DNA from: Candidatus Kryptoniota bacterium
GTDB taxonomy: Bacteria > Bacteroidota > Ignavibacteria > Kryptoniales > JAKASW01
Reading direction: 5' to 3'
DNA length: 64,000 bases
Assembly (NCBI GenBank): GCA_036567965.1
Contig: DATCTN010000026.1
Location: 62,001 to 126,000 of the forward strand
Of the stretch, positions 14,026 through 55,129 are shown in pieces. The translations under genes and the position numbers were made by a program. Numbering within the stretch: position 1 is the stretch's first letter; every line of letters starts with the position of its first letter. Under the pieces are notes generated by a model, which made no database searches, was not told the origin of the DNA, and saw only the letters and a program-made list of their open reading frames with translations.

Positions 14026-16029
14026 ATGAAAATGTTACGACGTTTAATGGTAATCGGAGCATTTGTAGTTCTTCAATGGAATGCGGTTTGGTCGCAAACC
14101 GTTATGATCAATCAGGTCGGGTATCTTCCCGATCAACAAAAGAAATTTTACGCGATAGCCGGCGCAGACAGTTTCTCTGTTACTGACGTCAATACCGGTG
14201 CAGTTGCGTATAGAGGCACGCTGCAAACACCTTCGGGAAAGGATCCATCGACGGGGTTTTACATTTATGCAGGGGATTTCTCGCCGTTGACTACTGAAGG
14301 AACATACAAGATATACACGGATGCTCCGGACAGTTCTTACCAGTTCAGCATCTCGCGAAGCGTCTTCGAAAGTGTGTACAAAGCTTCGTTGAAAGGTTAT
14401 TATTTTCAAAGGTGTGGTACTTCTCTCCTCTCGCAGAACGCGGGAGTGTATGCGCGGAGCACGTGTCACGTAAACGACGGCACTTATCACTCAACTACCG
14501 GTTTGACCGGAACGAAGGTGACTACAGGTGGGTGGCATGATGCAGGAGATTACGGCAAGTATGTCGTGAATGCCGGCATTTCTGTCGGAACACTCCTGCT
14601 CGCCTACGAAATGTTCCCGGACAAGTTCAAGTACGATGATTTGAACATTCCTGAAAGCGGTAACTCAGTTCCTGACATCCTTGACGAATCGAAATATGAA
14701 CTCGACTGGCTGCTTGAGATGCAGGACACCACGGACGGTGGAGTCTATTTCAAGGTGACCACCGAGAACTTCGACGGATTTGAGATGCCGAGCTCGGATC
14801 TGTCGACAAGATACATTTACCAAAAATCCACTACTGCGACGGGAGACTTTGCAGCTGTGATGGCGCTGGCAGCAAGACTCTTTCAGCAATTCGATACGGC
14901 ATATGCTTCAAGATGCCTGAACGCTTCTCGCCTCGCATGGCAGCACCTCGAGGCAAAACCGACTATCGTGCCCACCGGCGGGTTCCATAATCCATCCGGT
15001 ACAGGAACAGGGGAGTACGGCGATGGCAGCGATTCCGATGAACGGTTGTGGGCATCGGCGGAATTGTTCGTTACAACGGGCGACACTCTGTACCATAATT
15101 ACTTCAAAAGCCACTACAACTCGTCGGGTATTTTCGCGTCGACCATGGGTTGGGCGGATGTGCGTTCCATGGGTCAGCTCGAGTACCTTATCGGCGGCCA
15201 ATCGAAAGCCGACACGTCCGTACAATCGCAGCTGAAGGTTTCACTCCTCGCTTATTGCAGCGCGCTGAGTTATACGGCGGAGTACGACGGACTGAACGTA
15301 ACACTTACGCCTTCCCAATATTATTGGGGGAGCAACGGTCAGGTGTTGAACAATGCGGTCCTGCTAATTGCGGGTTACGTATTTTCAGGAGATACTACAT
15401 ATTACAACACTGCTCTGGAACAGCTCAATTACATACTCGGATGCAATGCCAGGCTCCAGACGTACGTGACCGGAATCGGCAGCAAGTCCCCACTGCACAT
15501 TCACCATCGTCCCTCTGCCGCTGACGGCATCGCGGCGCCAGTTCCCGGTTTGATGTCGGGAGGACCTGATGAAGGACTCGACGACGCGGTTCTCAAAGCA
15601 GACTACACTAGCACGACACCTCCTGCGCGATGTTATGTAGATGATCAGAACAGTTATGCGTCGAACGAGATCGCGATTAACTGGAATGCGCCGCTCGTGT
15701 TCGTGTCGGGTTATTTGAATGAGGCGCCTGCCACGCCTGTTGCTCAAGCCGTCCGCTCAATTCCGCTGAAATACAATTTGTCCCAGAATTATCCGAACCC
15801 TTTTAATCCATCTACCGTGATCGGGTACGATCTTCCGACCGGCGGGAAAGTATCCTTGAAGGTATATGACATTCTCGGGAGGGAAGTAGCTACACTCGTT
15901 TCGGGTGCAAGGGCTGCCGGGCACTATGACGTGACATTTGACGGAAGCCGACTGCCAAGTGGAGTGTACTTCTTCAGACTTTCTGCAGGACAATTCGGCT
16001 GCGCAAGAAAGATGGTGTTGCTTAAATAG
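14026..16029 (+). CDS. Glycoside hydrolase family 9 endoglucanase, T9SS-secreted
   Basis: The ATG at 14026 has AGGAG 10 bases upstream and starts a signal peptide (MKMLRRLMVIGAFVVLQWNAVWSQ). Next is a CelD-type N-terminal Ig-like domain (VMINQVGYLPDQQKKFYAI), then the (alpha/alpha)6 GH9 catalytic domain. The GGWHDAGDYGKY motif carries the base Asp pair (D172, D175). HHRPSA (near 493) and the acid Glu in NEIAINWNAP (E548) are in place, so the enzyme should be an active inverting beta-1,4-glucanase on cellulose or related glucans. The C-terminal T9SS sorting domain ([11 protein letters not shown], ending KMVLLK) indicates export to the outside. The neighbouring TonB receptor, GH13 and GH74 genes fit plant-polysaccharide use. 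Confidence 0.93.
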   Translation: MKMLRRLMVIGAFVVLQWNAVWSQTVMINQVGYLPDQQKKFYAIAGADSFSVTDVNTGAVAYRGTLQTPSGKDPSTGFYIYAGDFSPLTTEGTYKIYTDAPDSSYQFSISRSVFESVYKASLKGYYFQRCGTSLLSQNAGVYARSTCHVNDGTYHSTTGLTGTKVTTGGWHDAGDYGKYVVNAGISVGTLLLAYEMFPDKFKYDDLNIPESGNSVPDILDESKYELDWLLEMQDTTDGGVYFKVTTENFDGFEMPSSDLSTRYIYQKSTTATGDFAAVMALAARLFQQFDTAYASRCLNASRLAWQHLEAKPTIVPTGGFHNPSGTGTGEYGDGSDSDERLWASAELFVTTGDTLYHNYFKSHYNSSGIFASTMGWADVRSMGQLEYLIGGQSKADTSVQSQLKVSLLAYCSALSYTAEYDGLNVTLTPSQYYWGSNGQVLNNAVLLIAGYVFSGDTTYYNTALEQLNYILGCNARLQTYVTGIGSKSPLHIHHRPSAADGIAAPVPGLMSGGPDEGLDDAVLKADYTSTTPPARCYVDDQNSYASNEIAINWNAPLVFVSGYLNEAPATPVAQAVRSIPLKYNLSQNYPNPFNPSTVIGYDLPTGGKVSLKVYDILGREVATLVSGARAAGHYDVTFDGSRLPSGVYFFRLSAGQFGCARKMVLLK

Positions 16030-16040
16030 TTTCGACCGGG

Positions 16041-16073
16041 AGGTGACCGCCACTTATCAAGTGGCGGTCACCT
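16041..16073 (+). terminator. Perfect 15-bp hairpin after GH9 gene
   Basis: AGGTGACCGCCACTT pairs perfectly with AAGTGGCGGTCACCT around a 3-base loop, starting 12 bases after the GH9 stop. Only a short TTTC follows, so termination may be partly factor-dependent. A diverged copy of the right arm (AAGTGGGCGGTTACATTT) appears just downstream, at 16098-16115. Confidence 0.65.
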
Positions 16074-52394: not shown

Positions 52395-52587
52395 CGCTGA
52401 GCTCTGCGGTCCGCCAGCCGTAAAGTTACTTCCAACATAATTTTATTCTCTCTACTCGATTCTCTTTAATCCCATCGAGCGTCTGTTTATATTTATTCAA
52501 TACTGCAACCGAATTGTGAATCCCATTTCTGAATTTAAGGATGATTTGATCGACCGACGAAACACGGATCGCTAAGATGGAGGAAGA

Positions 52588-54153
52588 ATGGATGTCGGAA
52601 TTTTGAACCGCAAGATTGTTGAAGACAAGAAAGGAGGTCAACTCCTTCTGGATTTGAGCAACGATTTTAAGATCAGGATATATCGCGATTCCTTAAATGA
52701 ATCGGACGGTTGCACGTTCCTTATCGGACGCGAAGGATTTGTGAAATCGCTCTATCTCATTTCTGTGGGCGAAGTGAGTCCTCTGTTCAGGAAATTCGAG
52801 GGAGAAATTGTAGAGTCTTCCGGCAGCGGAGACAAGCTGAGGATCATGAGGTGTGGAATGACTCATTCCAACGCGCTCAGACTTCAGGAGCTCTTTCCGT
52901 TTACACGCGCGACAGCTGTCGGACTGACAAACTCTTTCGGCTTTGGCGACAGGCTGGGTCTCGCGAACGCCGGACATCTCCGTGCGCTGAAAGGATACAG
53001 GTTTAAACCTATCCTGGCACAGCAGTCGATCAGAGAATTGACCAGAACAAATCGAACTCCAGAAGATGTGATGGACGCTGCCGTGTGGGCCGTCTTCCAG
53101 GAAGGATACAAAGATGGGTTCGGTGCTGATGCAGACCATCTTAAGCGGACTGATGACATCGACAGGTTGATCAAGGCAGGATTCCGTACATTCACCTTCG
53201 ATCCAAGCGACTTCGTAGTGAATGGAGTCGAAGAGCTGAGTCTGGACGAAGTGAAAAGGAAAGTAGCGCTGCTTCCGTGGAAGGACTTGCAGGATAACGT
53301 CCAGGTGCTTCTGTCGCGTTACGAGAAAAAAACTTTCAAGATCTCTGACGGTTTTTCGATTGCGCCTGCCGGCGAAGAAATTTTTCGGGCTGCACTGAAA
53401 TATTGCGCCGCACTCGTTCATATCAGGAATTTGTATTCCCATCTGAAGAAGAATTACTCGGATATCAAATACGAAGTCGAAGTCTCGATTGACGAAACCG
53501 ACACGATCACATCGCCATTCGAGCATTTCTTTATCGTGACGGAATTGAAGCGGCTCGGAGTCATTTTTGTTAGCCTTGCCCCTCGCTTTATCGGTGACTT
53601 TGAGAAAGGAATCGATTATAAGGGGGATCTCGGGCTGTTCAGAAGGGAATATGAAAAGCACGCAAACATCTCTGTCCATTTTGGGGACTACAAGATTAGT
53701 CTGCACTCCGGGAGTGATAAGCTAAGTGCGTATAAAGAGATAGGGAAGCTGAACGTCGGCCTCATCCATATAAAAACTGCCGGCACCAGCTACCTCGAGG
53801 CGCTCAAAGTCGTCGCGAACAAAAACTATTCACTCTTCAGAGAAATCCTCGACTTTTCCGTCGGATTGTACGCTGACGAGAAGAAAAGCTACCACGTTTC
53901 GGCAGATGTCAAAAAACTGAAGCGCGGCAAAGAGTATCGAGATGACGAGCTGGCAGGACTTTTCAACTCGAACGATGTCAGGCAAATACTTCACGTCACT
54001 TACGGCAGGGTGCTTACGGAGAAAAATAAAGAAGGGAATTTCCTTTTCAGAGATCGGATCTACAAATGCCTGATCGAAAACGAAGAATTGCATTATCGAA
54101 TTCTTTTCGATCATTTCAGGAAACATCTGGAGCCGTTCAGGAACCTGGCCTGA
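52588..54153 (+). CDS. uxaE: Tagaturonate epimerase-like protein (UxaE family)
   Basis: The 521-residue protein resembles UxaE, the tagaturonate-fructuronate epimerase first described in Thermotoga. GFGADADHLK and HSGSDKLSAYKEIG are metal- and substrate-site-like blocks of that family, and the length agrees. It would convert D-tagaturonate (from galacturonate) to D-fructuronate in the cytoplasm. The downstream SDR of UxuB type would use the product, which supports the call. The ATG has GGAGG 4 bases upstream. It starts the hexuronate cluster; a 124-bp gap with an inverted repeat separates it from the next gene. Confidence 0.75.
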   Translation: MDVGILNRKIVEDKKGGQLLLDLSNDFKIRIYRDSLNESDGCTFLIGREGFVKSLYLISVGEVSPLFRKFEGEIVESSGSGDKLRIMRCGMTHSNALRLQELFPFTRATAVGLTNSFGFGDRLGLANAGHLRALKGYRFKPILAQQSIRELTRTNRTPEDVMDAAVWAVFQEGYKDGFGADADHLKRTDDIDRLIKAGFRTFTFDPSDFVVNGVEELSLDEVKRKVALLPWKDLQDNVQVLLSRYEKKTFKISDGFSIAPAGEEIFRAALKYCAALVHIRNLYSHLKKNYSDIKYEVEVSIDETDTITSPFEHFFIVTELKRLGVIFVSLAPRFIGDFEKGIDYKGDLGLFRREYEKHANISVHFGDYKISLHSGSDKLSAYKEIGKLNVGLIHIKTAGTSYLEALKVVANKNYSLFREILDFSVGLYADEKKSYHVSADVKKLKRGKEYRDDELAGLFNSNDVRQILHVTYGRVLTEKNKEGNFLFRDRIYKCLIENEELHYRILFDHFRKHLEPFRNLA

Positions 54154-54193
54154 ACCCTGATTAGAAATGAACGCCCTCCGTTTTTCTCGTATC

Positions 54194-54255
54194 GAAATTT
54201 CCGGTTTTCTTATTATTTTATTCTTAAAGTTACCGGTAAACCTTTCGGAAATTTC
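54194..54255. promoter_or_regulatory. Nested inverted repeats before the uxuB-type gene, putative operator
   Basis: Outer arms GAAATTTCCG (54194-54203) and CGGAAATTTC (54246-54255) are perfect 10-base complements. Between them lies a second perfect palindrome, TTACCGGTAA (54230-54239), with a central CG as in LacI-family operators. The sequence between is AT-rich. It lies 23-84 bases before the SDR start. It may be an internal promoter/operator, or the outer arms may form an mRNA stem. Confidence 0.5.
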
Positions 54256-54277
54256 TTTGAATCTATAGGACTGAGAA

Positions 54278-55129
54278 ATGAACAATTATTCATTTGAACA
54301 TTTGAGAGGAAGGTCGTGCGCGATAACCGGCGGCGCAGGCGTGATCGGTACTTCCATAGTGAAGTGTCTGGCGTCCGTCGGCGTGAAAGTAGCCGTGCTG
54401 GATCTCGTGAAAGATCTCGCGGACAAAACGGCGAAGACCCTCGTGGATGAAACGGGAACGGAAGCGATTGGCGTCGAGGCAAATGTTCTCGACAAGGATT
54501 CTCTTGTCCGTGCTAAAGAACTTATCGGCAAGAAATTCGGAAAACTGGACATCCTTGTAAACTGCGCCGGCGGCAACTCGCCTCAGGCGACTACGCTGGC
54601 GGAATTTGTTGACAAGGATAATCTTGATAAACTTCAAGACACTTTTTACGGTTTAAGTATAGAAGGCTTCAGAAAAGTCTTCGACCTAAATTTTATCGGG
54701 ACATTACTTCCGACAATGGTTTTGACAAAGGATATGGTTGAGAAAGGCGGCGGTACCGTCTTAAATGTGTCATCGATGAATTCGTTCCGACCGTTAACGA
54801 AGATCCCGGCATACTCAGCAGCTAAAGCATCTATCAATAATTTCACGGAATGGCTCGCCGTTCACCTGGCGAAAGTTAATATTCGAGTGAACGCGATCGC
54901 CCCGGGGTTTTTCCTTACAAATCAGAATAGATTCCTCTTGACTGACGAGAAGACGGGAAAACTGACGGCACGAGGAAACAAGATCCTCGCCGCGACACCC
55001 ATGGGAAAGTTCGGGGAGCCTGAAGACCTTCAAGGCGCGGTACTCTATCTCGTGTCCGACCTTTCAAAATTCGTGACCGGTGTCGTCATCCCTATAGACG
55101 GCGGGTTTAACGTGTACTCCGGAGTCTAG
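54278..55129 (+). CDS. uxuB: SDR-family D-mannonate oxidoreductase-like enzyme (UxuB type)
   Basis: The 283-residue short-chain dehydrogenase has the NAD(P) motif TGGAGVIGTSI, NCAGGNSP, Ser in NVSSMNSF, the YSAAK catalytic Tyr-Lys, and PIDGGF near the end. The insertion YGLSIEGFRKVFDLNFIGT and the tail NVYSGV match the SDR type of fructuronate reductase (UxuB/YjmF in Bacillus) rather than the long-chain E. coli UxuB. It would reduce fructuronate to D-mannonate. It lies between uxaE and a LarA-family gene, which starts 4 bases after its stop. Specificity is inferred from sequence pattern and context. Confidence 0.72.
   Translation: MNNYSFEHLRGRSCAITGGAGVIGTSIVKCLASVGVKVAVLDLVKDLADKTAKTLVDETGTEAIGVEANVLDKDSLVRAKELIGKKFGKLDILVNCAGGNSPQATTLAEFVDKDNLDKLQDTFYGLSIEGFRKVFDLNFIGTLLPTMVLTKDMVEKGGGTVLNVSSMNSFRPLTKIPAYSAAKASINNFTEWLAVHLAKVNIRVNAIAPGFFLTNQNRFLLTDEKTGKLTARGNKILAATPMGKFGEPEDLQGAVLYLVSDLSKFVTGVVIPIDGGFNVYSGV

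Follow-up and report, generated by a model that had tools for sequence, protein, structure and literature searches.

Regulation of uronate catabolism by LacI-family proteins is known from Bacteroides, where UxaR, UxuR and KdgR are LacI-family uronate regulators with predicted regulons (PMC3878776, PMC4052901). The binding sites of this family are mostly even palindromes with a central CG, and more than 75% of them lie upstream of the start codon at a distance of 30-140 bp (PMC4052901). A search of the literature found no description of such a uronate/pectin regulator, with its site and targets, for the uncultured-rich group that includes the Candidatus Kryptoniota bacterium considered here. 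We analysed a gap between two uronate genes in a 64,000-nucleotide stretch of this genome (the window), and propose, at a probability of about 0.6, that a LacI-family uronate/pectin regulator has a single, incomplete operator here, with the 10-bp palindrome TTACCGGTAA as its core.

The gap extends over 124 bp (54154-54277), from the stop codon of uxaE to the ATG of uxuB, and its features are collected in Table 1 together with related sites elsewhere in the genome. On the 3' side of uxuB are genes for a LarA-type putative hexonate epimerase, a 6-phosphogluconate dehydrogenase and a PdxB-like dehydrogenase, and after them those for a KDG-kinase-like sugar kinase, kduI, kduD and a KDPG aldolase; it is because of these genes that we place the gap in a setting of uronate/pectin breakdown. 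The uxuB gene itself has up to 80% identity to genes of other Ignavibacteria/Bacteroidota genomes, its best relative in 12 genomes of its own genus reaching 43%, and may either have been acquired by transfer or have been lost from the genus relatives. In another part of the window, directly 3' of an ORF stop at 16029, a 15-bp perfect inverted repeat (AGGTGACCGCCACTT, 16041-16073) is likely to be a terminator.

Table 1. Features of the uxaE-uxuB gap and its flanking genes (window coordinates), and tandem copies of the site at other loci of the same genome
Feature	Position	Strand	Remark
uxaE, tagaturonate epimerase, upstream gene	52588..54153	+	Pfam UxaE PF16257, E 5e-164
Weak promoter-like pair, TCGAAA - 16 nt - TATTTT	54192..54219	+	8/12 matches, chance P = 0.17
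Left arm of outer inverted repeat, GAAATTTCCG	54194..54203	+	
Operator-like site, TAAAGTTACCGGTAAA, left element and core intact, right element missing	54225..54240	+	16 nt identical to L089 site
TTACCGGTAA, 10-bp palindrome with central CG, probable LacI-family operator core	54230..54239	no strand	
Right arm of outer inverted repeat, CGGAAATTTC	54246..54255	+	
uxuB-type D-mannonate oxidoreductase (SDR family), downstream gene	54278..55129	+	NCBIfam NF006132, 378.7 bits vs cut-off 281
Tandem copy	C31:280614 (to 280644)		precedes C31:280989, first gene of pectin-locus operon
Tandem copy	C31:294797/294809 (294797-294827)		precedes pectinesterase gene
Tandem copy	C6:152330 (to 152360)		precedes TonB-receptor operon

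The first-pass annotation, which covered only 62 bp of the gap, had described two perfect symmetries, one inside the other, and both are present. The arms of the outer repeat pair at every position (100% complementarity) across a spacer of 42 nt. Although one symmetry encloses the other, they do not share a centre: that of the repeat is at about 54224.5 and that of the palindrome at 54234.5. Each outer arm consists of GAAATTTC, itself an 8-bp self-palindrome, plus two bases, and as its double occurrence gives a direct as well as an inverted repeat, the 'perfect' outer repeat is less remarkable. A first-order model derived from the window predicts 3.6 perfect inverted repeats (10 bp or longer, gap up to 60) per 64 kb, where 8 were seen, and 0.05 per 64 kb with a 10-bp palindrome enclosed as well; in 124 bp of local composition, an inverted repeat of this kind has a probability of 0.02 and a nested pair one of 0.001. 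The nested pair is thus locally uncommon, yet the outer repeat is near chance level and a few nested pairs are expected across the 4.1-Mb genome.

It had further been suggested that the outer repeat and the inner palindrome form a composite operator, bound together at an internal promoter. The local rarity of the nested pair and a TATTTT suitably spaced upstream of the site are in keeping with this, but nothing like the outer arms accompanies the other copies of the site, whether in this genome or in relatives, and the promoter match is not significant, so that we regard a composite operator as highly improbable. The full outer repeat occurs once in the 4.1-Mb genome and, given this single copy, its absence from relatives and its near-chance frequency, we do not count it as part of an operator; it is best regarded as incidental. 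The gap was also considered as a member of a repeat family and rejected as such, the genome holding no second copy of it. An RNA function for the outer repeat, as an intercistronic hairpin stabilising or partly terminating the uxaE message, also appears improbable: a 71-nt stretch does fold at -16.4 kcal/mol (z = -3.26 against shuffles), but this stretch was picked for its repeat and the whole gap reaches only z = -1.44, no U-tract follows the repeat, and a terminator scan does not list it.

What stands of the proposed operator is the inner palindrome, which matches a site found before a LacI-family regulator and its targets. All 10 of its positions are symmetric, and its even length and central CG are those of LacI-family operators, although the symmetry stops short of the 16-22 nt usual for them; the core lies 39-48 nt upstream of the uxuB ATG. 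A more distant genome, L089, has a lacI-uxaE-uxuB operon headed by a site with the same 16 consecutive bases as TAAAGTTACCGGTAAA. The left element and core of the site, AAGTWAYCGNTNAA, are present in the window as AAGTTACCGGTAAA, which ranks first in 236 kb. A PWM built from eight sites of relatives, none from this genome, has its best match in the 64-kb window at 54225 (11.7 bits). With a PWM built from 17 sites outside this genome, the window site ranks first in 236 kb of the genome over the 14-nt core and seventh over the full 22 nt, after sites in other loci; the 22-nt match has P = 0.004 in 124-mers of local composition, and such P values are somewhat optimistic because the consensus was broadened with the window site already known.

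The right element, AAGTWA, is missing from the window copy, which has ACCTT there instead (AAACCTT), and the full-length pattern fits the window site only at three mismatches, a level at which it has 70 matches in the genome against 99 for a reversed-pattern control. Taken alone, TTACCGGTAA occurs at five sites in the genome (control, 1), three of which have no flanking sequence in common with the window site. The generalised motif TTASCGSTAA, put forward at first, proved to be the wrong consensus: the relatives show WAAGTWAYCGNTNAAGTWA, and near matches to the generalised form in the window number 3 against 3.7 expected. A 9-mer of the gap, TAAAGTTAC, is also found 5' of uxaE (52421-52429), there lacking the CGGTAA that follows it in the gap.

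Five LacI-family genes are present in this genome, and one of them (C31:293497-294555) lies directly after uxaC in a pectin locus that also holds pectinesterase-like and acetylesterase-like genes, named by eye from their sequence. This regulator has a match in 10 of the 13 family genomes, its own included, the other nine being orthologs in relatives with 64-67% identity; in several relatives the gene and uxaE share a contig, about 20-25 kb apart. The conserved site WAAGTWAYCG-NT-NAAGTWA precedes the regulator gene next to uxaC in nine genomes of the genus. When the spacers of the nine orthologs were aligned with that of the own copy, the relatives had one conserved block, ATAGTAACCGGTCAAGTTAC or AAAGTTATCGGGAAAGTAA, with the rest diverged, and in the own-genome spacer this block is lost. 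The recognition helix NVSKVT[VI]SKAL and the hinge ARNLS are identical in this genome, the genus, L038 and L089, the whole proteins of the latter two having 55% and 50% identity, respectively, to the own regulator. The PWM from the eight sites of relatives also picks up the site in other lineages: L089 has TTGACA-N17-TAAAAT, then AATAGTAACCGATAAAGTTACCGGTAAAGG, then lacI-uxaE-uxuB, the order in L038 is uxuB-LarA-site-lacI, and in L042 and L044 the site is about 200 nt upstream of uxuB. It is the match to this site, conserved in front of the gene for a LacI-family uronate regulator and in front of its targets, that makes the inner palindrome a probable operator. Sites within the kduI coding sequence of L160, L168 and L171 were set aside as coding, and among long near-perfect palindromes upstream of uronate genes none was common to them.

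Tandem copies of the site, spaced by 12 bp and each following a TTGACA box, are found at three loci of the same genome (Table 1). The 13-nt pattern AGTWAYCGNTNAA is matched exactly at 10 places in the 4.1-Mb genome, against 5 for a control: four in uronate/pectin gaps (the uxaE-uxuB gap included), one upstream of a TonB receptor, four within coding sequence and one without a long ORF over it. In the locus L217 (C6:146611-152360), operator-like sites occur 5' of a TonB-receptor gene and, within coding sequence, at the beginning of the gene that follows it (C6:148934); this locus is a possible further member of the regulon. The stronger copies are direct repeats with a 12-bp period (AAGTWAYCGNTN), seen at the three own-genome loci, at L089:1337-1370 and at L038:2299-2333, an arrangement unlike the long, even palindrome that LacI-family operators usually have. 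A tentative suggestion, to which we give rather little weight, is that the LacI-type uronate regulator of this lineage reads the 12-bp-period direct repeat and not one long palindrome, so that overlapping sites could be filled stepwise; the single unit in the window would then be a weak, low-occupancy member of this graded set.

Conservation, on which the first-pass annotation had proposed to judge the symmetries, gives a divided result. The inner palindrome matches the site of relatives, but this site is absent upstream of uxuB in L037, L040 and L041, three of the nearest orthologs (76-80% identity), of which L037 and L040 keep the uxaE-uxuB gene order. Within the genus, the low identity of the best uxuB allowed no position-by-position footprint of the gap, and the sequence 3' of uxaE differs in all genus relatives. 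There is accordingly a lesser, though appreciable, chance that the palindrome is a coincidence or a decayed remnant, operator-like but of no present function, with uxuB read through from uxaE. The absence from the three orthologs fits this reading, as do the missing half of the site, the lack of a consensus promoter and the occurrence of TTACCGGTAA in coding sequence elsewhere (C6:148936); against this, the core ranks at the top in 236 kb and does so between genes of the same pathway to which the regulator's other sites belong, and a match this good in 124 bp has a P of about 0.004 or less.

The internal promoter fared less well than the operator. The TCGAAA/TATTTT pair is the best sigma-70 match on the + strand and sits where regulated promoters lie relative to the site, but the match is not significant and a promoter scan does not list it. 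A TTGACA box stands upstream of nearly all of the other sites used for comparison; as the window copy has neither this box nor the right AAGTWA element, an internal promoter is unproven. If the regulator binds the single incomplete operator, and represses rather than activates, both of which we infer, it would in the absence of inducer occupy a position about 40 bp before uxuB and reduce transcription from this gene onwards, by acting on a weak local promoter or by stopping transcription that runs on from uxaE. Its release would then come from a uronate-derived inducer.

For the use of uronate and pectin in this uncultured-rich group, the analysis offers a candidate regulator together with a consensus site and several putative target operons; specialists might in particular pursue the tandem 12-bp spacing of the stronger sites. 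Since LacI-family uronate regulation is known from Bacteroides (PMC3878776, PMC4052901), the system would add one more case to a well-known type of gene switch. The pathway logic is also like that of E. coli, where UxuR and ExuR regulate hexuronate genes, but these are described in PMC9369180 as GntR-family proteins, unlike the LacI-family one here. With UxaR, UxuR and KdgR of Bacteroides the present system shares a LacI-family regulator beside uronate genes (uxaC here; uxaE-uxuB in L089), a probable regulon of uronate catabolism and pectin genes, and a CG-centred operator core. The sites here are often 12-bp-spaced direct repeats and not long even palindromes, and the likeness to the Bacteroides regulators is drawn at the level of the family.
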